29,164 nucleotides of DNA from a virus, in the IMG/VR virus record IMGVR_UViG_3300035698_006573, positions 1-29,164 of that record. The stretch is one strand, 5' to 3'. Below, one piece after another: positions 2,695-26,131 of the stretch. The first letter of the stretch is position 1. Each line of letters starts with the position of its first letter. The notes under the pieces were generated by a model. The model saw nothing but the letters and a program-made list of their open reading frames with translations, had not been told where the DNA came from and made no database searches. A program made the translations under genes and the position numbers.

Positions 2695-4553
2695 TAAAAT
2701 TCTGCTCCTACTGCAATTTTCCCTCTGTTATATCCATCATAAAATGTTTCATCATCTACTTGGCTCATTAACAATTCACCATCTACTGTTACAAAGTTAG
2801 TTCTGTTAATTATTCTAATGCCATTATCAGGTCCATATTTATTAGGACTACTTGTAGGTGTTATACTAACACGTTCTTTACCACCTGGATTATCACCAAC
2901 TAACATCATTTGAGGTCCGTTCGTTACAAAATCACCACCAGTAGCAAAACTTGGTATAGCACTTAATGCTTTATCCATAACTCCTGATACAACTGCTCCT
3001 GCTCCTGCGGCTGCGATTAAGTTAAATGGGAATGGTACTGTTTTTAATATTGATGCTAAATATCCAGCAACTGCTTCCATAGTTTCTGCTCTAACTACAG
3101 ACTTCATTGAATCCATAGCAGATTGTCCAGATAATGCGGCACTCTTTAAGTCTGTTATAAGTTGAGCTTCTTTTCTTGATTTGCCTTCATCATCTAATTT
3201 CTTTTTAGTATTCGCTAACCATAAGTCTATCTCATGTTGGGCTACACCCGCTTCTCTATATTGTTCAACTTGTCTATCTAATAATGCTTGTTCTCTGTCT
3301 GCTGTCGCCAAAGATGACTCTCATAATAGGTCGTCAAACTCTGACCTTAAATCCATTTGTCTATTTATATTGTATATTAAATTCTTTGTTTCAGGGTTAT
3401 CACCTGGGTCAGTGACATCCATTGTTTGGTTCTCTGGTGCTTCACCAAAGTCTATATCTATTGCCTTTACGGTGTCGTCTAACAACACTAATCCTGCTAT
3501 TGTTGCTTCAACACTACTATCGATACTACTTAAATAATTACCATACCCTTCATAGAAATCTTCAACTTCTGGTTCAAGACCATTAATACTTGCAATAACT
3601 TCATATAATTTTATTAATGCTCCAGTTGCTCCTGTTGCTGGCGCCATAAATAGGTCTACTAAATCTTTATGTTTTGTATATAAGTTAATTAATGTTACTA
3701 ATCCACCAGCCATCTTACCAACTGCTGTGCCTAACAATATAAAGTTATTAGTCATTTGAGCAATATCTTCAGGGTTCATCTTGTCTAATTCAGCGGTGAA
3801 AGCCTCTGTAAATGCTCCCATTCCTTCAGTAACACTACCAGCAATCTCTTGAATCATTGGCTCAATACCTGCGGCTATTGTTTTACGTAAATCATCAAAT
3901 GTTGCCGCCATCTTTTCTGTATTTAATGCTGATGCTTCTGCTGTGCCCTTAAATTGACTTTCAAGTTCTTCTAATATAATAACTTGGGCACTCATTATGT
4001 CGCCTGACTCTTGTAATACTCTAATTTGGTCTTTTTGTTGTTGAGTAAATGTAACACCAACTCTTGTAAGTGCAGTAATTCCAACGATAGGGTCATTAAG
4101 TGCTTTAGAAAGAGAAAGTGTATTACCTGTTAATTCACCTTGTACCGCACTCATATCTATGATAGCCTGCGTTGCTCTTGGGAATATATCCTCACCAATA
4201 TTCTTAAATGTGGCAATCATTGCTTGTGACTGCATAATAAGAGTATTACTTACACCAGTTGCATCCTGAATAGCGTTTGCGTGTTCTGCCATTTGAGTTG
4301 CACTTATGCCGGCTGCGTTTCCAGTTGCCTTAATAACTGCTTCTAACTTTAAGAACTGTTTATTATCTTCACGTAATAGTTTGGCACTACCAGCCATGAA
4401 CTGAATTGCTTTCGTTGCAACTGCGGCAACTGCGGCAATACCAATAATGTTCTTTGCCATAGACGCAAAGTTTTTATCCAGTTTGTCAACTTGGCGATTT
4501 GCTTTCTTATCTCCCTGGACAATTATCTGAGTCACTAATTTTTCTACTGCCAT
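2694..4553 (-). CDS. Tail tape measure protein
   Basis: A 619-residue protein; one TGA (around residue 411, LLWESS) joins two fragments. ATG at 4553 overlaps the stop of the frameshifted chaperone (TAATG). It is helical and Ala/Gln-rich with short hydrophobic segments (near residue 40 and around the FPFNLIAAAGAGAVV stretch). Near the C-terminus it has FATGGDFVTNGPQMMLVGD, the characteristic end of many siphovirus tape measures. It sets tail length and passes into the cell membrane during injection. At about 0.15 nm per residue it predicts a tail near 90 nm, at the short end for siphoviruses. The position after the G/GT chaperones and before the hub is diagnostic. No lysozyme or peptidase domain is visible inside it. 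Confidence 0.9.
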
Positions 4554-5229
4554 TATCTTTTCTCCATCGCTTTCTTTTGTAGTCTAACTATTTCGCTCCG
4601 AGCAACATTGTAGAGCTGATTGAAAAATGCTGGTTGTTCCCACCATGAACCCTCATTTGGATACTCTTCTCGATAAGCAAATTCTATCACTATTCTATTT
4701 ATATTTCATATGAATGGCATGTCTCTTTTATCACATCTATCGTAATATTCACACCCTTCGCAGAAATACAAAACTTTATTACAATTGCTACAACTATCTC
4801 TCTCACATTTCTGACAATCAGCCTGTGCTACCTGTTCAGGTATGTTGTTTCATCTGATTGCCTTTATTAGTTTTTTTCAGCTTCATCCAACATTTGCTTG
4901 GACTCATGTTTCCTTATTTCTATACTGATATGAGAAGATACTTTAACATCTAAATCACCGAATGATTCTTCTGTAATTGGCATTATATTGCCCTTATCAT
5001 CTTCTAATGTCCATGAATCTATAGCCAATATTGCTGTTATAGCCGCATCTCTAAAACTATCATATTCGGTTACTAACTTACCATCTTCTAACTTTTGGTC
5101 TGTCTTACACCTTCTTAAAACTTCGTGAAACTCTTTTGCTGATAGGCTATGACACTCACAAATGTCCTCACCTCTATACTCTATTGTATAGTTAAAATCT
5201 GGTTGATACTTTACAAAACAATTCTTCAT
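4553..5229 (-). CDS. Tail assembly chaperone GT-type fusion, made by -1 frameshift
   Basis: The upstream 120-residue frame (5229-4870) ends GAA AAA AAC TAA. A -1 slip at the A AAA AAC heptamer (4876-4870) enters an open frame that runs to TAA at 4555-4553 and adds about 105 residues. The fusion is about 225 residues, like lambda gpGT, whose T part recruits tube subunits to the tape measure. The -1 frame needs two TGA=Trp codons (IRWNN, FIWNI). The T part carries a dense cysteine cluster (C-x2-C, then further Cys pairs, then CEGC and CDK), seven Cys in about 33 residues, which looks like a metal-binding knuckle and is unusual for T domains. It ends in TAATG coupled to the tape measure. The slip site and frame are seen directly; frameshifting in vivo is inferred from the family. 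Confidence 0.78.
4867..5229 (-). CDS. Tail assembly chaperone G-type (unshifted product)
   Basis: A 120-residue protein from ATG at 5229-5227, chosen because GAGGAAAT lies just upstream. A longer reading from 5265 starts inside the spacer hairpin region and lacks a ribosome site. It is mixed charged and helical (ECHSLSAKEFHEVLRR, DAAITAILAIDSW), as for G-type chaperones that coat the tape measure before tube assembly, and lies between the tail tube and tape-measure genes as expected. It ends in TAA directly inside the slippery site. No TGA codon is present in this frame. Confidence 0.75.
   Translation of the reverse strand: MKNCFVKYQPDFNYTIEYRGEDICECHSLSAKEFHEVLRRCKTDQKLEDGKLVTEYDSFRDAAITAILAIDSWTLEDDKGNIMPITEESFGDLDVKVSSHISIEIRKHESKQMLDEAEKN
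4870..4876 (-). promoter_or_regulatory. Programmed -1 frameshift site (A AAA AAC)
   Basis: The minus strand reads GAA AAA AAC TAA in the zero frame, so the heptamer A AAA AAC has the canonical X XXY YYZ form and is followed immediately by the zero-frame stop. The -1 frame is open from here to 4553. Tail chaperone genes of most siphoviruses use this arrangement. I see no strong downstream stem within 10 bases; the adjacent stop codon may be enough to promote slipping. Confidence 0.8.
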
Positions 5230-10150: not shown

Positions 10151-11563
10151 CTACACCTCTGGAGGTGCCAATATTGTCTCTAATGTGCTTACTTGGGCAC
10201 TCGTTAATCTTTTATGTTCTTGAAACTTCTTCAACTTCTCAATGGCATCCTCTTCTGTAATATCAGGGTCTTTTTTCATTAAGATTTCAACATTACTTGT
10301 TAAGCCAGCGGCTAACAATATTGTATTAAGCCTTGCTTCTTCTTCTGGAGAACTATCAAAAACTATCTCTGCATAATTCAATATAATTTCTGTATCTTCA
10401 GGGAATGTCTTCGCTGTATTATTCAAACTCCAAGTAACCATCATTAATTCTAATAAGTCTCTAATTGGCATAATGTAATATTGTCTGTCTGATTTAACAC
10501 GCTTCAATAACGTCTCATTCGACAGCTTTAATTGATAACCTGAGTTAAGTGTCGTGTTATCTTTTTTATACGCTTGTGCTGAAAGTCCAGCCGCTTGAGC
10601 CGCATCTACTTTCTTATTTGCTATCGCAGTTTCATACTCTGATAACTTTGGAGAAGGGTTAATGTAATCTGCTGTAGGTTGTACATCACTTGTTGGGTCT
10701 GCTTTCATTGCTAACAATGACTGAGGACCCCACTCTATTGACTTTAATGTTTTGTCGTCCATGCCAACAATTACAAGGGTCGAATATGCTTGGAATGAGT
10801 ACATCATCGATAAGTTAGTCTGGTCTATATTAATCCATTCATTTGCAGGAACCAATGGGTTCTTCTTTTCGGGCCAGAAGTTGTTTATCTGTAAATCATT
10901 TGTAAATCATACTACTGGAATAACTTTATATGGGTTATCTACTATATCTTTTTCGCTTATTATCTTGCCATTCGCAATATCAACATTAACAATACTTTGC
11001 GTCTCATCTGTCCATCTAATGTATTGGTCTAATCTATGCTCTGCTTTTGAAGATGGCGTTTGCTCCACCCCTGAGATGTGAACAAACAAATCAGTTATCT
11101 TTGTTGGATTTTTAGGGTCTTGGTATGCAAAACACTTATCGCCAGTTATGATGTCTAATTCTACTTTATCATCTCTTCAAACTGGCATCACGCCAACCTT
11201 GTAAGTCAAATTAACAAAGTGGTTTACCTTATCTAATGTTGCATGAAACATGCTATCAGTTAGCATTGTTGTAAATTCATCTTCTAAATTTTCCTTATCA
11301 ATATCTACAAGCATTGGGTTTTGGAATAAAATCGATGTATCGTCAATAACTCTCTGGGTTAATGGATATGTTGACGCATATCTTGCCACCTTTGTATGTG
11401 TTGTTGGGTAAATTGTTTGTAGTAATGAGGATAAATAATAATCCTGATTGTTCTCATAGTAGTCAATGTCCTTCAATACGCTACGTCTACGCTTCAAATC
11501 TTCTTGTCATATTGAAGTCTTCTTTTGTTCAACTATTAAGTTGCTTAATGATATATTAAACAT
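10151..11563 (-). CDS. Portal protein
   Basis: A 470-residue protein from ATG 11563-11561 (TAGGAG upstream) to TAG. Three in-frame TGAs (near residues 19, 129 and 216) split it into four pieces under the standard code. The N-terminal part (TYPLTQRVIDDTSILFQNP), the central clip/wing part (PVVWFTND, PANEWINIDQTNLSMMYSFQAY) and the long stem helices with LLELMMVTWSL followed by FPEDTEIILNYAEIVF are typical of SPP1 gp6-like portals. It forms the dodecameric ring for DNA entry. It follows the large terminase subunit by 16 bases and precedes the head morphogenesis genes, the standard order. Confidence 0.85.
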
Positions 11564-11579
11564 TATTGTTATCTCCTAA

Positions 11580-12857
11580 TTATGCACCAATTACACGTCC
11601 AGGTGTTCTTACTGTGATTGGATAAAGTCTTTCAACTAAATAACCAAAACTATCTGTGATATGGACCCATGGTTTCCCTGGCATCTCTCTTTTCTTATCA
11701 ATTCTTCCGTCGTCTGTCCTTGCTGATAATCTTATATCTTTAATAAGATATGGACACCCACTCTTTAATATTCTTACTCTTCTGTGAGACAGTGCGGCAT
11801 TCACCGTGTTCAATCTATCCCTTTGAGTTGATATTTTATTACCATCTATTCTGAAATAGTATGGCGCTTCTCTTAATATCTTTATGTCTGACACTCCTAA
11901 TGGAGCATTCGTACTTCTTTTCTTTAATGAAGTCAAATCAGGGAATACAGTTATATCTCTTTTCCCGTATTTATTAACTATCACTTTCGCCATCTCTTCT
12001 GTATTACTATTAGGTAATATTATCTCTTCAAATAAGAATAAATTACCATCAATACCTATCTCGCCAACTACTGCTACCATTGGATTTACGTTAAAGTCCA
12101 TACCTATAAGTATGCTTCTTCCAATCTTGTTGTATCTGTCAATAGCAAGGCTGTCTTTTCAACTGTAATATGCAGGCATGCTGTTTATATCAACAAATCC
12201 GCCCTCAATATATTGCTCTGCTACCTGTTTATCAAACTGAGCATACAAATCATCTATATACTCCCTACCAGTAAATGGATTATCATAACTCGCCGCCTTA
12301 ATCAATTTACCAATTGGTGGCTTACCATTAATGCCCTCTATAAATAATTCATACGTATAGAGATAACCTTCTGGCGTCGTAACTATAGCACCAGTTCCAT
12401 CAGGTACCGCTCTAATACGTGCGATACACTCTCTTCAGACAAGGGTTTGGGAGTTGTAACTACTAAGAGAATCGAACTCATCTATTATGAAATCAGTTAC
12501 GGTTAAACCCTTTATAAGTCTGTAGTTCTGTGCTGTTCTAAACATAATCAACCCAGACAATCCTGGGGACTTCACTTCTATTTCAGCATTACTTAAATGC
12601 TCTGTATATTCTATTCCATAGCCGTCAAATAAAGAACGGAATAGGGGCCAAAGAATATCTTGACTCATTCTATATGTTGGACTAAGGACTAATATTTTAC
12701 CTTTGCCCTTACGTCTTTTAATTAAATTTAATACTCTTAATGGTATTGCATACGACTTGCCACTGCCGAACCCTCCCACAAGTGCTGTATAACGTGTATC
12801 ACTAACTGCGAACTCTATCTGGTGCTTTAATGCTCCAATAATTGCTCTTACGGCCAT
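11580..12857 (-). CDS. terL: Terminase large subunit
   Basis: A 425-residue protein joined across two TGA codons (residues 141 and near 225). Walker A GGFGSGKS lies at residues 28-35, with the ATPase coupling region behind it, and Walker B FIIDEFD at 123-129. The nuclease domain shows GMDFN (Asp 254), VFPD (Asp 307) and HITDSFGYL (Asp 402), the three acidic positions of the RNaseH-like terminase nuclease. It packages DNA into the procapsid and cuts the concatemer. ATG at 12857 overlaps the stop of the small subunit (TAATG). Length is normal. No intein or insertion is visible. Confidence 0.93.
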
Positions 12858-16316: not shown

Positions 16317-16835
16317 TTACTCTCCAATTCCCTTTAATGCTGTTTGGTATGCTTCTGCCGCTTTAAGTTCATCTGTGAAATGTCCTAAGTGTTTAAGTTT
16401 ACCATCGATGAATATACTTGCTTTTCATTTGTCTAATCCAGTAAACTTAAAGACGCCTGTATATTCAGATGTACTTTTTTGCGTCTTCTGGTACTTTACA
16501 CAATTCACTCTGTTTGTTACTAAGTGTAAGTTATCGATTCTATTGTTTGATTTGCCACTAATATGGTCAACTTGTAATTTCATACCGTTTCTTGCTCTAT
16601 TACCAAAATGGTCTCAGACTAGGTGATGAACTCTAAATCCTTTTGCCTTTCCTTCTTTGGATAATCTGACAAACAGATAACCATTACCATTGTCATTAAG
16701 ATTTAATTCTCGTTCTCTGACGCTCATAAGACAGGTCCCATTTTGAACCTGTCTCTTTACAGACCTAACTTTTCCAAAATTGCTAATCTGATAATAGCCT
16801 TCGTAAAATATTATGTCTTTCCAAAGTTCTTGCAT
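16317..16835 (-). CDS. HNH homing endonuclease (NUMOD4-HNH-AP2)
   Basis: A 172-residue protein, ATG at 16835 overlapping the upstream stop (TAATG). Residues 3-45 are a NUMOD4 module (LWKDIIFYEGYYQISNFGKV). The HNH core VHHLVWDHFGN..., KLQVDHISG and N-x2-NLHLVT lies at about residues 68-110, and an AP2-like DNA-binding repeat (YTGVFKF ... KWKASIFIDGKLKHLGHFTDE) follows. Two in-frame TGAs fall exactly at family Trp positions (LVW and KW). It is a paralogue of the plus-strand gene at 20372. It is a selfish DNA element with no obvious role in virion production. Confidence 0.88.
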
Positions 16836-17178: not shown

Positions 17179-18012
17179 TTATTTTGTTTTTGTTCTAATT
17201 CAATTTTCTAATGAATAGTTTTCATTAATATACTCTACTATACCAGCACCTAAGTAATCGTCTGGGCATACTATAATCTTATCCTCATGTCTATTCAAGA
17301 ATGCGGCCCACCAACTATAACTACTATTGGCTATAATATTATGGTCACATAAACTCATCACCGCCATATCAACGAAATCGTTACCTGTTTCAACGAATAT
17401 AACTCTATCACTTTCTTCGTCTCAAATGTTTGCTTTAAACCAATTTCTATCTTGTGTACATATTAAAAATACATAGTCGTCAACATCGTCTTTACTGAAG
17501 AAGTTTTCTGTTAATGCATTGTGATAGTAATTTCTATTTAGATTTAATGATGCTACCTGAACGTAATCACCTCTTCTGTTATGAATGCTCACTAATTTCT
17601 TTTCTTTACTCAGGTTCAATGATTTGATGTATTCATTTGCTTTTTCTAATACGTCTTGCTTATACTTAAAAGTTTCATATACATAATCTCTAATGTTATC
17701 TCAGTAAGTGTGAATATGAAACATTGAATGAAATATATAATTCTTATTTTTATCTAAATTAAAAACTGCTTCATCTAGTGGTATTCTACCGTTAATCTTT
17801 TTCATTTCTCATTCGAAGTCATTCTTATCAATTCACTTAATATCTAAATCTAATACTTTATCAAACTTATTACCTCACTTACCAGCAACGCCCATTAACA
17901 TGACCGCTTCCATACCTGTCTTCTCTGCTATTCCTAACAATGAGGCGTACTGTTGTATTTGTGAGCAAGTATCTCCTATTGATGGAAAGTTATTTAATGT
18001 TATATACCCCAT
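17179..18012 (-). CDS. GT11-family glycosyltransferase (alpha-1,2-fucosyltransferase-like)
   Basis: A 277-residue protein, ATG 18012-18010 overlapping the upstream stop (TAATG), with six in-frame TGAs. Residues 143-150 read IHNRRGDY, the H-x-R-x-GDY donor-binding motif of GT11 fucosyltransferases. About residues 225-247 give MSLCDHNIIANSSYSWWAAF, another GT11 hallmark. The N-terminal QIQQYASLLGIAEKTG fits the helix after the first motif, although the usual G-x-GNQ-F sequence is degenerate (SIGDTCSQ). It would transfer fucose or a similar sugar from a GDP-sugar. Targets could be host surface glycans (blocking superinfection) or the phage's own Ser/Thr-rich fibres. No signal peptide or membrane segment, so it is cytoplasmic. 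Confidence 0.82.
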
Positions 18013-18690: not shown

Positions 18691-19422
18691 CTACTTCTCC
18701 TTTTCCTTCTTTTGTGGCTGGAATATTCTTATCTTGCCAACTGATATTAAACTTTGTTTAAGTTCTGCAACGTAAATATTAACTTTACTTTCATTTAAGC
18801 CTGTGTATTGTAATAATTGTGTTTTAGTTATGTCGTAATTTACATATTTCCAGCTCTTGTAACTACGCATAATTAATATAAAGGCTTCGTTCATTAATAC
18901 TCTCCCCTTACCTTTAAGTTTCGTTTGGACATTTTCGCTTGTTAGATAGTCAAGGAACATATCAGCCTTTTCTAATGCGTATAATATTTGGTCTTCCCTT
19001 TCTTTTTCAATCTCATCATGATTTGCTAATTTATCCAACAAATCTGTAGCCGAATTTCCCTCGCCTTCAATATTATCATTTACTGCATCAACAAATAGGT
19101 GCCTACTATAATGTTTCTTCTGTTTTAACCCTTTTTGAGTTAGATAGTTAAATGCTACTCTGTTAAAAAAACTAAAGGCACTACCTTTGTCTACATTGAA
19201 CTTTGATAATTTCATTCATAGCCAGGATGTTGTATCTGCTACAAGGTCGTCAATTGGACCAAGGCTCTTCCATAACTGAAACTTGGCAATAACAAAACGG
19301 CTCATTATTTCGAAGCCTGGGTGTAAGTAATTCTCATAGATAAAGTTTCTTCTTGCTATGTTAGTTTCTCTTTGTCACTCGATAATTCAGGCTTCATTTT
19401 GCTCAGAAAAATATAATTCCAT
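18691..19422 (-). CDS. Phage sigma factor, T4 gp55-like (sigma70 region 2)
   Basis: A 243-residue protein, ATG 19422-19420 with AAGGAG, stop TAG; three TGAs at residues 12, 16 and 69. Residues 31-50 (NYLHPGFEIMSRFVIAKFQL), followed by DDLVADTTSWLWMKLSKFNV and KGSAFSFFNRVAFNYL (58-94), give the region 2 pattern of T4 gp55-like late sigma factors: an acidic helix, K.F....G.AF..F, then an aromatic helix. A C-terminal helical part (KTQLLQYTGLNESKVNIYVAEL) resembles a helix-turn-helix. It would redirect host RNA polymerase to phage promoters. It is the first gene of the long minus operon, next to the structured gap. The family is distant, so the call rests on pattern. Confidence 0.68.
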
Positions 19423-19440: not shown

Positions 19441-19464
19441 TTTATATAAATAGGCTAGCCAAAA
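19441..19464 (-). promoter_or_regulatory. Outward promoter/operator of the sigma-factor operon
   Basis: On the minus strand TTTTGGCT (19464-19457), continuing AGCC and then TATTTATATAAA, lies 42 bases before the sigma-factor start. The same TTTTGGCT.GC..TAT....ATATAA pattern lies in the opposite direction before the plus-strand genes (19871-19894). GGCTAGCC is itself a palindrome. On the plus strand the same site reads TATAAATA (19445-19452), which equals the T4 late -10 sequence. A shared regulator or the phage sigma factor may act here. Confidence 0.6.
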
Positions 19465-19735
19465 CCCAAACATCAATAAATATTAATTTTTTTATGGATT
19501 TTATTGGAGTTTACGACAATAAAATCTCTGTTAATATAATAATGTTTGGGTTTCTTAACTGATACCTACTACACAGAATCCTTTTGAAAATTAAGTTAAA
19601 GAACTCAGAAGGATAACGAAGTTATTCTGATGAATAGTAGTATGAGTTTACGAATACTACTATTTTGTATATACTTAATACTCTATGTTCGAGACAAGCT
19701 CGAAATTCTTTATTCTTATTTTTTTAATATCAGTT
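19462..19735 (+). ncRNA. Candidate structured RNA (or origin-like region) between divergent promoters
   Basis: A long hairpin spans 19462-19553: AAACCCAAACAT pairs with ATGTTTGGGTTT (12 bp), ATATTAA with TTAATAT (7 bp), and GATTTTATTG with CAATAAAATC (10 bp) around the loop GAGTTTACGA (19507-19516). A second hairpin at 19578-19614 pairs ATCCTTTTGA with TCAGAAGGAT (one G-T). A third at 19633-19664 pairs AATAGTAGTAT with ATACTACTATT around the same loop GAGTTTACGA (19644-19653). A last small stem, TTCGAG with CTCGAA (19688-19704), is followed by a T-rich tail to 19735, like a plus-strand terminator. No good protein frame lies here. The repeats could equally form DNA cruciforms at an origin of replication. 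Confidence 0.55.
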
Positions 19736-19870
19736 TAAGTAGTTTAATTCATTTGCGCCAGCACATGGATATGTCTCTCTCATTCAATCTCTTGGCTTGC
19801 TAATAATAGGTATGTAGCTGGATTCCCAAACCTCAAAAAGAATAAATATTTATTTTTATTTAAGAAAACT
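19736..19870. other. Intergenic remainder without a convincing gene
   Basis: The rest of the 496-base gap is AT-rich. A CCCAAACCTC stretch followed by AATAAATATTTATTTT (19825-19860) imperfectly repeats the CCCAAACATC..TAAATATTAATTTT part of 19465-19493. Short minus-strand frames of 16-19 residues exist but have no clear ribosome site. I see no tRNA here. Confidence 0.5.
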
Positions 19871-20371: not shown

Positions 20372-20929
20372 ATGAAAGAAGAATGGAAACAGATTGAAGG
20401 GTTTGAAGGTATGTACGAAATTAGCAATATTGGTAGGGTTAAGAGTTTAAGTAGGAATGTTATAAATGGAATTGGTTGCTTTAGAACAGTTAAAGAAAGG
20501 ATATTAAAGCAAAACACAAGTACTTCTGGGTATTTATATGTAAGTTTGTGTAAAGAAGGTAAAAGAAAATTACACAGAATTCATCATTTAATATGAGACA
20601 ATTTTGGTGATAAACCTAGGAATGGTAGGAAACTTCAGGTTGACCACAAAAACGAAATCAAAACTGATAACAGAATTGGCAATCTTCAGTTATTAACAAA
20701 TCGTCAAAATACTACAAAAAGCACGTTATTATTGAAAACTTCAAGCAAATATACGGGAGTTTGTTGGAACAAACAAACAAAAAAGTGGGTTGCAGTTATT
20801 GGTATTAACAGAAAACCCAAACACTTAGGTTATTTTACAGATGAACTTAAAGCATCTGAAGCATATCAGAAAGCACTTAAAGAGCATTTAGATACAAAAA
20901 TAACCCAAAAAGGTATTAGTATAATATAA
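20372..20929 (+). CDS. HNH homing endonuclease (NUMOD4-HNH-AP2), plus strand
   Basis: A 185-residue protein, ATG at 20372, stop TAA; a TGA at residue 75 joins two fragments. A NUMOD4 module (EEWKQIEGFEGMYEISNIGRV) spans residues 3-50. The HNH core IHHLIWDNFGD, LQVDHKNEI and GNLQLLTNRQN follows at about 70-115, and an AP2-like repeat (YTGVCWNKQTKKWVAVIGIN, KHLGYFTDE) at 125-165. Compared with its minus-strand paralogue (16317), the LVW Trp is again TGA but the KW Trp is TGG, which shows both codons serve the same residue. It ends in a tandem two-way terminator. Confidence 0.88.
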
Positions 20930-22918: not shown

Positions 22919-25900
22919 TTATGCCTCAAATGTTTCTGCTAATACATTACTTGGGTTAAATTGAACTGAACTCGTTGAATAAGCGATACCTAACATATTA
23001 AGTTGGTCACCTGAACCAGTTGTAGGTAATTGCGTCATTGAGCCAGAGTTGTATGAACCTGATGCCTTTGCTAAATATACAGCACTGCCTATATTCCAAT
23101 CCCAACTTTCATCACGTGCGTATCCACTTCTTAATACTATTGGATTGCCTTCTGCACTTGATTCAGATACAATCATTCCAAATGCTAATGAACTCACTGA
23201 AGCCGTTGCGTCTGCATCTCATAATTTTCCATCTGATTTCATATATACTATATTACCAAATACAACATCTTCTCCTGCTAATATATCACTTGTTATTAAT
23301 CCTGAATAAGTTAAATCAGATGCTAATGCCGAGTCTTCATCAAGGCTGCCAGAAGCACTGCCTCCGCTTCCTCCACCTGAAGTTCCAGATGTTCCTGAAG
23401 TACCATCTTCACCTGAAGTGCCTGATGTTCCAGTGCCACTTGTACCAGAACTACCTGATGTTCCTGCATCTCCAGTTGCTCCACTTGTGCCAGAACTACC
23501 ACTTGTTCCTGACGAACCTGAGGCACCTGTATCACCTGTATCACCTGTTGCACCACTCGTTCCAGAGCTTCCAGAAGTTCCTGCTACTCCAGATGTTCCT
23601 GAAGAACCACTTGTTCCTGCATCTCCAGATGTTCCACTTGAACCTGACGTTCCATCAGCTCCTGAAGTACCAGAAGTTCCTGAAGTTCCACTTGCTCCTG
23701 AAGTTGTAAATTCTAACGCTGTTGCACCTGAGTTAACAACAACAAATTTATCACCTTGGTCTGTAAATGCATTCGGCGTATCTGTCAATCCTAAGAATGT
23801 TGTTACTCCAGTACCACCAGCACCACCACCAGCTGATATATTAGGTATAGCACCTCTTAAATCTTCTGTAGCATATAATGACCAATCACCTGATGCATTT
23901 ACAATTGTAAATCTTGCAATTAAGAACCCAGTGCCTTGGAATGGTCTTGGTATATTATACACTGAATAATTAAATGCGTCTGACGTAGCATCTGATGGAC
24001 TGTTTTTTGAATAAGTTCCAATAGGTAAATTACACATTAAATGTGATTCTTCGCCAGTCTTATTTGCAATTCCCCATACAACTATACTAAATGATGTATT
24101 ATTAAGTGTGTCTCCTACAGCGTCGTCTGTTAATGTTAATAAATCTGTCACAGAAAGATATGGTGTTGTATTATGATTAACTATATGTGCATCGACATCA
24201 GGCATTGATTGTGAAACAAATATTTGCTCATGCATTTGATATACTATACCACCAGTTGTTTGTATATAAGCGTTTGTTGGTAATCCAGTAAGCGAACCTT
24301 CTATACCTGAATCTCATTGAGCTTCAAACTTTCTTAATTTTTCTGTTATGTGTGTTAAATGACCTTGTTTATCTGACCATCCAGCTAAATGGTCATTGAT
24401 ATTACGATTACCTAAAGCACCATCTGCCGCTGTTGCTGTTGCAGATTGTAATACTACATTAGCAATTTTAATATATTCTTCTGATGGATAACCACCAGTA
24501 TCAACGGTCAAAACAGGATTACTTATAGGAATGTATATAAAATTCTCTTGTGGTGAAGTATCTAATCCAGCAGTTAATGTTATCTTTAAGTCAGATACAT
24601 CAAGTATTTGCCTACCAGTTGAAAATCTCATAGTTAAATAATCAAATCCAGCTGGATTTGTTAAACTACCTGTAATATCTGTTCCATCACTTGTAATTCT
24701 AAAGTCAAATGATTCTCTTATTATACCATTGAAGAAGTTTGTTGTTGTATCGTCTGGGTTAGCACTTGGGTCAATGTTTATTTTACCTGTTGTTTCATTA
24801 ATTTCTAATACGGTTCCAACGAATGCTGAATAATAAGGAAATATTGGCTCTACATTTGTTAATGAGCCAGATTCTGTTCCTGAAAGATATAGTGCGTCTC
24901 CCATATTCCAATCCGATGTATCCATACCATATACTTTACCAACGTGAGTTGCAACACCTGAACCACTATCTAATACTTCGTGTGTAGCAATCATAATATT
25001 ACGACCAAAGTTAGCATCTCTATCAGCAATTGGTAATATTGGTGTTAATAATGTTCTTCCTGAAATTGGGTCAACTGCCGCACCACCAACACTTAAAATT
25101 GTACCAATTGTTATTGTATTACCTGTATTATTATAATATTCAATTTGTCCATCTCTACCAAGGTGTATTGCATGACCTAATCCATTATCAAGATATAATG
25201 AATAATCTGCTTCATCCCAACGTACTTGTGCCGTTCCTGATGCAATTGCAAAGTTTATAGTATCTAACTCATTAATATCTTCTACAGATAGTGAGCCAGA
25301 TATAACAGCAGAACCACTAATATCTAATTTTTCAGAAGGTGTTTCTGTTCCAATACCAACATTAGTTCCCATAAAGTATGTGTCGCCACTTGATGTAACT
25401 TCTAAATAACCGTCTACTATTATTCCATCTGTTCCAGATTGAGAAACTATACTATCAACTAATGTGTTTGAAGACCCTACTGGTATGTAATTGTCTGTCA
25501 AAGTTACCGTTACGCTCGTTCCTGATGTTCCTGCTGTACCGCTTGTTCCAGAAGACCCAGAACTGCCAGACGAACCACTTGTGCCTGAACTACCATCTAT
25601 TCCAGATGTTCCCGAAGTACCACTTGAACCTGATTCTCCTGAAGTACCTGAAGTACCTGAAGTACCATCAATGCCACTTGTTCCAGATGAGCCAGCGTCT
25701 CCCGTATCACCTTTAACTCCAGATGTTCCACTTGTTCCGTCTACACCGCTTGTTCCAGAAGTACCGTCAACACCCGAAGTTCCTGATGAACCACTTGTAC
25801 CAGAGCCCGAAGTTCCACTTGTGCCGTCTGTTCCACTTATACCCGATGTCCCTGATGAGCCACTTGTGCCTGAACTACCATCTGTACCTGCTACACCACT

Positions 25901-26131
25901 CGTTCCACTTGTTCCGCTTGTTCCAGAAGTATTACTACCACCAGCATTTTCGGCATAAGATGCTGTTACGGCATAGTCAGCATAACTCGCACTCTCTATA
26001 GAACCACTTACCGTTATTACAACAGGGTTTCCTAATCCATCTAATATTTCATTATTGCTTCCACTCACTTGTAGTAATCTGTAGAAACTTGAGCTAATGT
26101 GTAAGTTTGTTAAATTCTTTTCGTATGCCAT
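22919..26131 (-). CDS. Long collagen-like tail fibre
   Basis: The largest gene: 1,070 residues, two in-frame TGAs (near residues 606 and 972), ATG 26131 with AGGAG, stop TAA. Two blocks of Gly-X-Y triplets (about residues 66-207 and 810-928), mainly GTS, GSS, GAD and GVD with a GVKGDTGDAG stretch, form collagen-like triple-helix stalks without proline. Between them lies a beta-rich domain with GNVGIGT and SEKLDISGSAVIS repeats (from about residue 245), the usual fibre shaft layout, and the C-terminal region (AFGMIVSESSAEG, DWNIGSAVYLA) matches a similar segment in the middle (near residues 400-425). The protein is most likely a trimeric fibre that reaches the host receptor. Confidence 0.82.
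23350..23705 (-). repeat. Collagen-like Gly-X-Y repeat block 2
   Basis: About 120 residues of near-continuous GTS/GSS/GAS/GAD/GDT triplets in the long fibre, encoded by 9-base units of variable third bases. On the plus strand the same DNA gives a long open frame of P-x-V repeats, which is only a shadow. Confidence 0.9.
25512..25935 (-). repeat. Collagen-like Gly-X-Y repeat block 1
   Basis: About 140 residues of GTS/GSS/GVD/GVK triplets near the N-terminus of the long fibre. Codon third positions vary between units, so the block was kept by selection for protein rather than by recent slippage. The repeats could still recombine with block 2, which would change fibre length. Confidence 0.9.

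Follow-up and report, generated by a model that had tools for sequence, protein, structure and literature searches.

The boxB element of lambdoid phages is a small hairpin read mainly via its loop of 5-6 nt, and it belongs to one phage group and its N protein. The N4 virion RNA polymerase uses single-stranded hairpins as promoters; their triloop is C-GNA-G-like, and in DNA C-GNA-G triloops have notable stability. The put RNA of phage HK022 is about 70 nt long and acts in cis in antitermination, and GOLLD and ROOL are large structured noncoding RNAs known in phages. The put RNAs are described as two stem-loops located downstream of phage early promoters (PMC9378689). Structures of GOLLD and ROOL are available (PMC12286853), and at rolling-circle origins of the Genomoviridae type inverted repeats form a stem whose loop displays a short conserved sequence (PMC10378824).

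The element described here is a hairpin with a 10-nt loop. It was noticed in a viral DNA of 29,164 nt (positions 1 to 29,164 of IMG/VR record IMGVR_UViG_3300035698_006573), hereafter called the window. It resembles rolling-circle origins and the ssoA/CS-6 single-strand origins in its presentation of a loop and, in two groups of carriers (f and g, Table 1), in its position beside initiator-like genes and iterons. Unlike rolling-circle origins, it is carried by tailed dsDNA phages that lack the tested HUH families, and CS-6 (TAGCGA/T) does not match the loop. Like the put RNAs, it may be a stem-loop phage RNA 3' of promoters, but it differs from put, judged by put's general description, in having a single invariant 10-nt loop, arbitrary stems and a position that is sometimes antisense to its neighbours. 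A small hairpin with the loop as main signal is shared with boxB; however, the loop is longer, and the proteins common to the carriers are just common phage enzymes. The N4 triloop resembles that of an accessory hairpin at our locus (hairpin B), whereas the main loop has 10 nt. In contrast to GOLLD and ROOL, the element gave no Rfam 15 match at gathering or relaxed thresholds, in the window or at ten other carrier loci, and literature searches with the loop sequence returned unrelated papers only. The loop hairpin is apparently a folded recognition element that has not been described before.

Hairpins of the gap

The hairpins lie in a gap bounded by a - strand gene (start at about 19422) and a + strand gene (19895/19919). 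An earlier note on this DNA had claimed two perfect hairpins with unlike stems and one 10-base loop, and this proved correct: A1 and A2 are both fully Watson-Crick around GAGTTTACGA (Table 1), which has no other copy in the whole 29,164-base record. In first-order Markov simulations, perfect stems of 10 bp or more on a 10-nt loop numbered 0.08 on average per window-length sequence; the window has two, and their loops are identical. The 12-bp outer stem claimed around A1 is present, as is an inner extension of about 8 bp. A third stem with a single G-T pair also exists as described, at 8 bp rather than 10, and the reported small stem with a T-rich tail was recovered as a terminator-like stem on the + strand (1 found, 0.4 expected from shuffles). 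C-GNA-G triloop hairpins like hairpin B adjoin the main hairpin also in L260, the T4-like group and L269. The T4-late-type motif upstream of the outer stem has 8 matches in the window against 5.9 expected, which is not significant alone; what is suggestive is its position only. Folding of both strands, which the note had proposed, gave RNA z-scores of -5.4 (+) and -4.5 (-), each far beyond shuffles, and a DNA z-score of -6.9 for the + strand; in none of these three cases did any shuffle fold as well as the gap.

Table 1. Positions of window features, and stems of the other loop carriers
Feature	Position	Strand	Description
T4-late-type promoter motif, tentative	19445-19452	+	TATAAATA, about 10 bases 5' of outer stem
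Outer stem of A1, 5' arm	19462-19473	+	AAACCCAAACAT, 12 bp
Hairpin A1	19497-19526	+	GATTTTATTG-GAGTTTACGA-CAATAAAATC, 10-bp perfect stem, loop 19507-19516; model R1 44.6 bits
Outer stem of A1, 3' arm	19542-19553	+	ATGTTTGGGTTT, 12 bp
Second, weaker outer stem	19587-19603 / 19706-19722		76% complementary, surrounds right-hand hairpins
Hairpin B	19610-19628	+	AGGATAAC-GAA-GTTATTCT, 8 bp with one G-T, C-GAA-G triloop
Hairpin A2	19633-19664	+	AATAGTAGTAT-GAGTTTACGA-ATACTACTATT, 11-bp perfect stem, loop 19644-19653; model R1 48.4 bits
Terminator-like stem	19688-19704	+	TTCGAG-ACAAG-CTCGAA; T-rich tail to about 19725
Genes cited for TGA = Trp, examples	10154-11563, 11583-12857	-	
G004/G005			stem 17 bp
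G002			stem 15 bp
G001, 131-kb phage			stem 12 bp; second hairpin 125 nt away, 11 bp, loop GAGTTTTGCGA
G006			stem 11 bp
G003, T4-like			two sites, stem 10 bp
G007, relative of G003			stem 10 bp
Group f (G008, G011, G013, G014)			stem 8 bp
Group g (G009, G010, G012)			stem 8 bp
L278, MAG contig			stem 13 bp; from scan of one genome per species

Several other features of the window were recorded. A 37-nt direct repeat (19465-19501 and 19825-19861, 73% identical, both copies starting CCCAAAC) lies on either side of the hairpin region and possibly represents two related promoters or origin repeats. The divergent neighbour gene (18694-19422, -) resembles a phage sigma factor by eye, with no support from Pfam, PHROGs or PDB sequence searches. 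The gene at 17182-18012 (-) has a glycosyltransferase family 11 (fucosyltransferase-like) domain (E 3e-20), and that at 22922-26131 (-) encodes a 1070-aa collagen-like protein with GTSG-type repeats, probably a tail fibre. Two genes (20372-20926, +, and 16320-16835, -) belong to one NUMOD4/HNH endonuclease-type family, with further members in G001, G002, f and g that are not next to the hairpin. TGA is read as tryptophan in this phage: under code 4, open-frame coverage goes up from 0.47 to 0.81, and where its terminase and portal have TGA codons, relatives mostly have W or F.

Phages that carry the loop

IMG/VR was scanned for exact matches to the loop with two or three flanking pairs. Including the window, GAGTTTACGA was found as the loop of differing perfect stems of 8-17 bp in at least 19 hairpins from at least about nine lineages; groups f and g are related to each other, and at least eight lineages are unrelated. 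Among the matches listed, many coding or chance matches have stems of at most 5 bp and a separate set has stems of 8-17 bp, with none between, and the scores of model R1 leave a gap between 41 and 29 bits. The carriers include a 124-kb phage besides the 131-kb one. By terminase comparison, group f falls close to Bacillus phages and the G003 group among T4-like phages, and G001 is a distant neighbour of Bacillus phages. The nearest terminase relatives of the window, L003 (100%) and L004 and L005 (about 75%), are fragments from which the element is absent, and a search for relatives via the neighbouring - strand protein of the window found none.

The genes beside the element differ among carriers (integrase and helicase in G002, a head gene and phoH in G007, a methylase-like gene and terminase in G006, a ligase, tRNAs and an anticodon-binding domain in L278), and its orientation relative to genes is mixed. 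Around the L278 hairpin, at 3400-4700, there is a run of several other hairpins, together with tRNA genes and an anticodon-binding domain that stands alone; genomes of this MAG's phylum are mostly about 0.5-1 Mb. Blastn searches with the hairpins and their flanks against cultured or annotated phages and plasmids gave just chance or promoter/coding matches. Those rejected include an 18-base match in Vibrio phage 501E54-1, where the stem is merely 4 bp, and an AT-rich match in Yersinia phage GN1 that lacks the loop. Across 1,079 bacterial genomes, the MAG's own phylum yielded one positive among 286, this being the MAG itself, and two other phyla gave 0/398 and 0/395 under stricter filters and without a positive control. 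The tie to recoded phages drawn in the earlier note did not hold: when nine larger carrier records were measured under code 4, the window alone gained much coding from reading TGA as tryptophan. The element is thus no speciality of recoded phages, and recoding is not needed for it.

Loop constraint and stem freedom

The matches were retrieved by their exact loop, so the counts of the pair table are conditioned on that loop, and the pattern might be held to reflect chance or an artefact of searching with one loop. In that table, double changes occur at all 10 pairs and 97% of positions are paired, against about 31-46% when slid, figures that agree with a free stem but depend on the way the sequences were chosen. 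Three free-loop scans, ATTATGAGNNNNCGAATAAT, AGTATGAGNNNNCGAATACT and AGTATNNGTTTACNNATACT, left parts of the loop open and escape this conditioning. With the first, TTTA loops lay on stems of 10-15 bp in 3/3 cases, and all eight other tetraloops stayed at the 5 bp imposed by the pattern. With the second, TTTA loops had 11-17 bp stems in 4/4 cases and the seven others 5 or 6 bp; combining these two scans, long stems accompanied TTTA in 7/7 cases versus 0/15 for other bases. With the third, GA..GA loops were on 11-17 bp stems in 4/4 cases, and the 48 others had 5 or 6 bp. Fisher P values for the three scans were 0.006, 0.003 and 4e-6, or conservatively, given that several matches are copies of one another, 0.02, 0.008 and 6e-4. 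Stems on other loops reach at most one pair past the required 5 bp, and chance or artefact, which we find hardly credible, is excluded by these scans as far as sequence allows. The scans also exclude the idea that any GAG-N4-CGA loop, by tandem G-A geometry alone, would serve.

Closer comparisons show how the stems vary. Among the T4-like copies, a single one has G-C at a stem pair where the others have A-T, and in group g one pair is either A-T or T-A. At the homologous loci of f and g, which share the order initiator-like gene, hairpin, DnaB, primase, 3/8 pairs differ, every one compensated, and the loop is identical. Covariation, which the earlier note had suggested looking for in related phages, is seen among related carriers within the T4-like group, within g, and between f and g. 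The three loop-proximal pairs are TAT/ATA in all aligned hairpins except A1 and the second G001 hairpin, and TAT-GAGTTTACGA-ATA may be taken as the practical core, in part since the fullest scan demanded it. The hairpins, their constrained loop and free stems, and their recurrence in many phages are direct observations. The tested loop bases are constrained and the stem is free, a hallmark of folded single strands that are recognised through their loop. The note's argument that a constant loop with varied pairs signals a selected structure is strongly supported by the unrelated phages and the free-loop scans, and on this comparative evidence we regard the hairpins as real and selected, and the loop as the signal common to unrelated phages.

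Transcript, origin and other readings

The interpretation we favour, at somewhat short of an even chance, is that the gap acts as a folded single strand, likeliest a + strand transcript of roughly 265 nt (about 19458-19726), whose loop would be recognised by a conserved partner. Such a transcript would show GAGUUUACGA twice, on the tips of rigid stems. The loop would be the recognised part, and the stem a scaffold whose sequence is free while pairing holds, with UAU/AUA preferred beside the loop. Since this display recurs in unrelated phages, its partner should be common to them all. We infer recognition in trans by a partner that every carrier encounters, for instance a conserved component, protein or RNA, of the host's transcription, RNA decay, translation or defence machinery, which the phage RNA might engage as a regulator or a decoy. 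A bolder version, which we consider doubtful, would make the fixed 10-nt loop GAGUUUACGA the whole signal of an undescribed class of phage hairpins, kept or regained by capturing one deeply conserved host factor; this class might possibly be an RNA decoy or counter-defence element.

The earlier note had named a regulatory RNA, a decoy or an origin. Promoters speak for a transcript, and an initiator gene, iterons and one GC-skew minimum speak for an origin. Transcription of the + strand is supported but not proved. Sigma-70-type promoters on this strand (TTGACA-17-TATAAT, -TAGACT or -TAAACT) lie 80-220 nt 5' of the loop in G002, G001 and all three T4-like sites and exceed the 95% shuffle level, and no - strand promoter does so in any lineage. 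A + strand match in G010 also passes, yet it sits inside the adjacent, non-conserved gene, and the window's own + strand promoter is weak. In G003, a unit of promoter, about 110 nt, hairpin and ATCCGAAGGAT occurs in two copies with different neighbouring genes. These two loci (L270 and L273, at 23.4 kb and 46.0 kb) have a moron-like look, the promoter with its conserved start GAGCGGGGAAA being duplicated along with the hairpin. The terminator-like stem of the window, on the + strand 3' of the second hairpin, counts for a transcript. Of the features of an independent small RNA gene, promoters are seen in three lineages and a terminator-like stem in the window. Folding energy is lower on the + strand at 9/11 sites, and accessory stems carry G-T pairs on that strand (hairpin B of the window, L266). 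Against a transcript, the + strand is antisense to neighbouring genes and has no convincing promoter in f, g, G005 and G006. No internal G-U was seen in about 126 independent bp of main stems, which were chosen for perfect loop-proximal pairing, and where the pairing is first interrupted, G-T was counted three times and A-C four times, which does not discriminate between strands.

The perfectly Watson-Crick main stems, and the stability of C-GNA-G triloops in DNA, would suit a single-stranded DNA hairpin at a phage origin, a serious competitor to the transcript that we judge possible but on balance unlikely. The strand would fold as the origin opens or is traversed, in the manner of rolling-circle or single-strand origin loops, and a replication factor would bind the invariant loop or use it for priming; a transcription-primed origin would account for the promoters as well. 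In f and g, the hairpin is directly 3' of an initiator-like gene (PHROG O-like/initiator, E 1e-5 in g, 3e-3 in f) and 5' of DnaB and primase. Three iterons separate that gene from the hairpin (L264, L266), namely AAAAAGAAT every 14 nt in f and ATAAAGAAT every 15 nt in g, and as 9-mers they are confined almost wholly to that spot in their contigs. In G001 (L259), six AGATCT repeats fall within about 250 nt either side of the loop, and in G002 the cumulative GC-skew minimum (83 kb) falls at the hairpin (84.4 kb), which adjoins a UvrD-type helicase gene. This 131-kb G001 phage also has a CGCGCG-rich stretch and repeated CGCTCC near its two hairpins. For an iteron-type origin, then, initiator gene and direct repeats are found together in f and g and repeats in G001, and neither the T4-like group nor the window has a comparable combination. 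One copy in the T4-like phages occupies a small island flanked by the major head region and phoH, the element of G006 sits between a methylase-like gene and the terminase genes, neither G001 nor G005 has a skew minimum at the site, and no replication protein is common to all carriers. An invariant loop on a variable stem, as at HUH origins, is observed; however, the HUH families Rep_OBD, Phage_GPA and Y1 transposase were not found in nine carriers, several of whose records are fragments, and the loop as an HUH nick site was rejected on the lack of an initiator of these three families.

A leader acting in cis in nascent RNA, which like HK022 put or lambda boxB would modify RNA polymerase or capture an antiterminator, would agree with the strong promoter 80-220 nt upstream and the same-strand gene downstream at the G001, G002 and T4-like sites; put RNAs likewise sit 3' of phage early promoters as two stem-loops (PMC9378689). 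We nevertheless rate it improbable: neighbouring genes oppose the + strand in f, g, G005 and G006, group g keeps the block although the next gene differs from phage to phage, and in the window the terminator-like stem is directly 3' of the element. Still less probable, to the point of being remote, is a recombination site of a tyrosine integrase, in which inverted arms would enclose a fixed overlap. The distance from the hairpin to an integrase gene is about 200 nt in G002, about 1 kb in G005 and 2-3 kb in f. Against this reading, recombinases read the arms, and here the arms are unrelated across lineages; G002, G005 and f are also the only carriers in which an integrase was found nearby, none having been noticed next to the element in the window, G003, G006, G007 or g. 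Two further candidates were dropped. A leader peptide starting at the ATG of the loop would have later codons that vary with the stem, and its ribosome-binding site would fall in the stem (by eye). Pairing of the loop with 16S rRNA (7 bases, GUUUACG) is at chance level for a 10-mer.

The motif is simple enough for immediate use as bait. A fixed loop on a free stem in T4-like myophages and Bacillus-like siphophages alike implies a common partner, and the identity of that partner would expose either one host target that unrelated phages have in common or a common step in the start of their replication.
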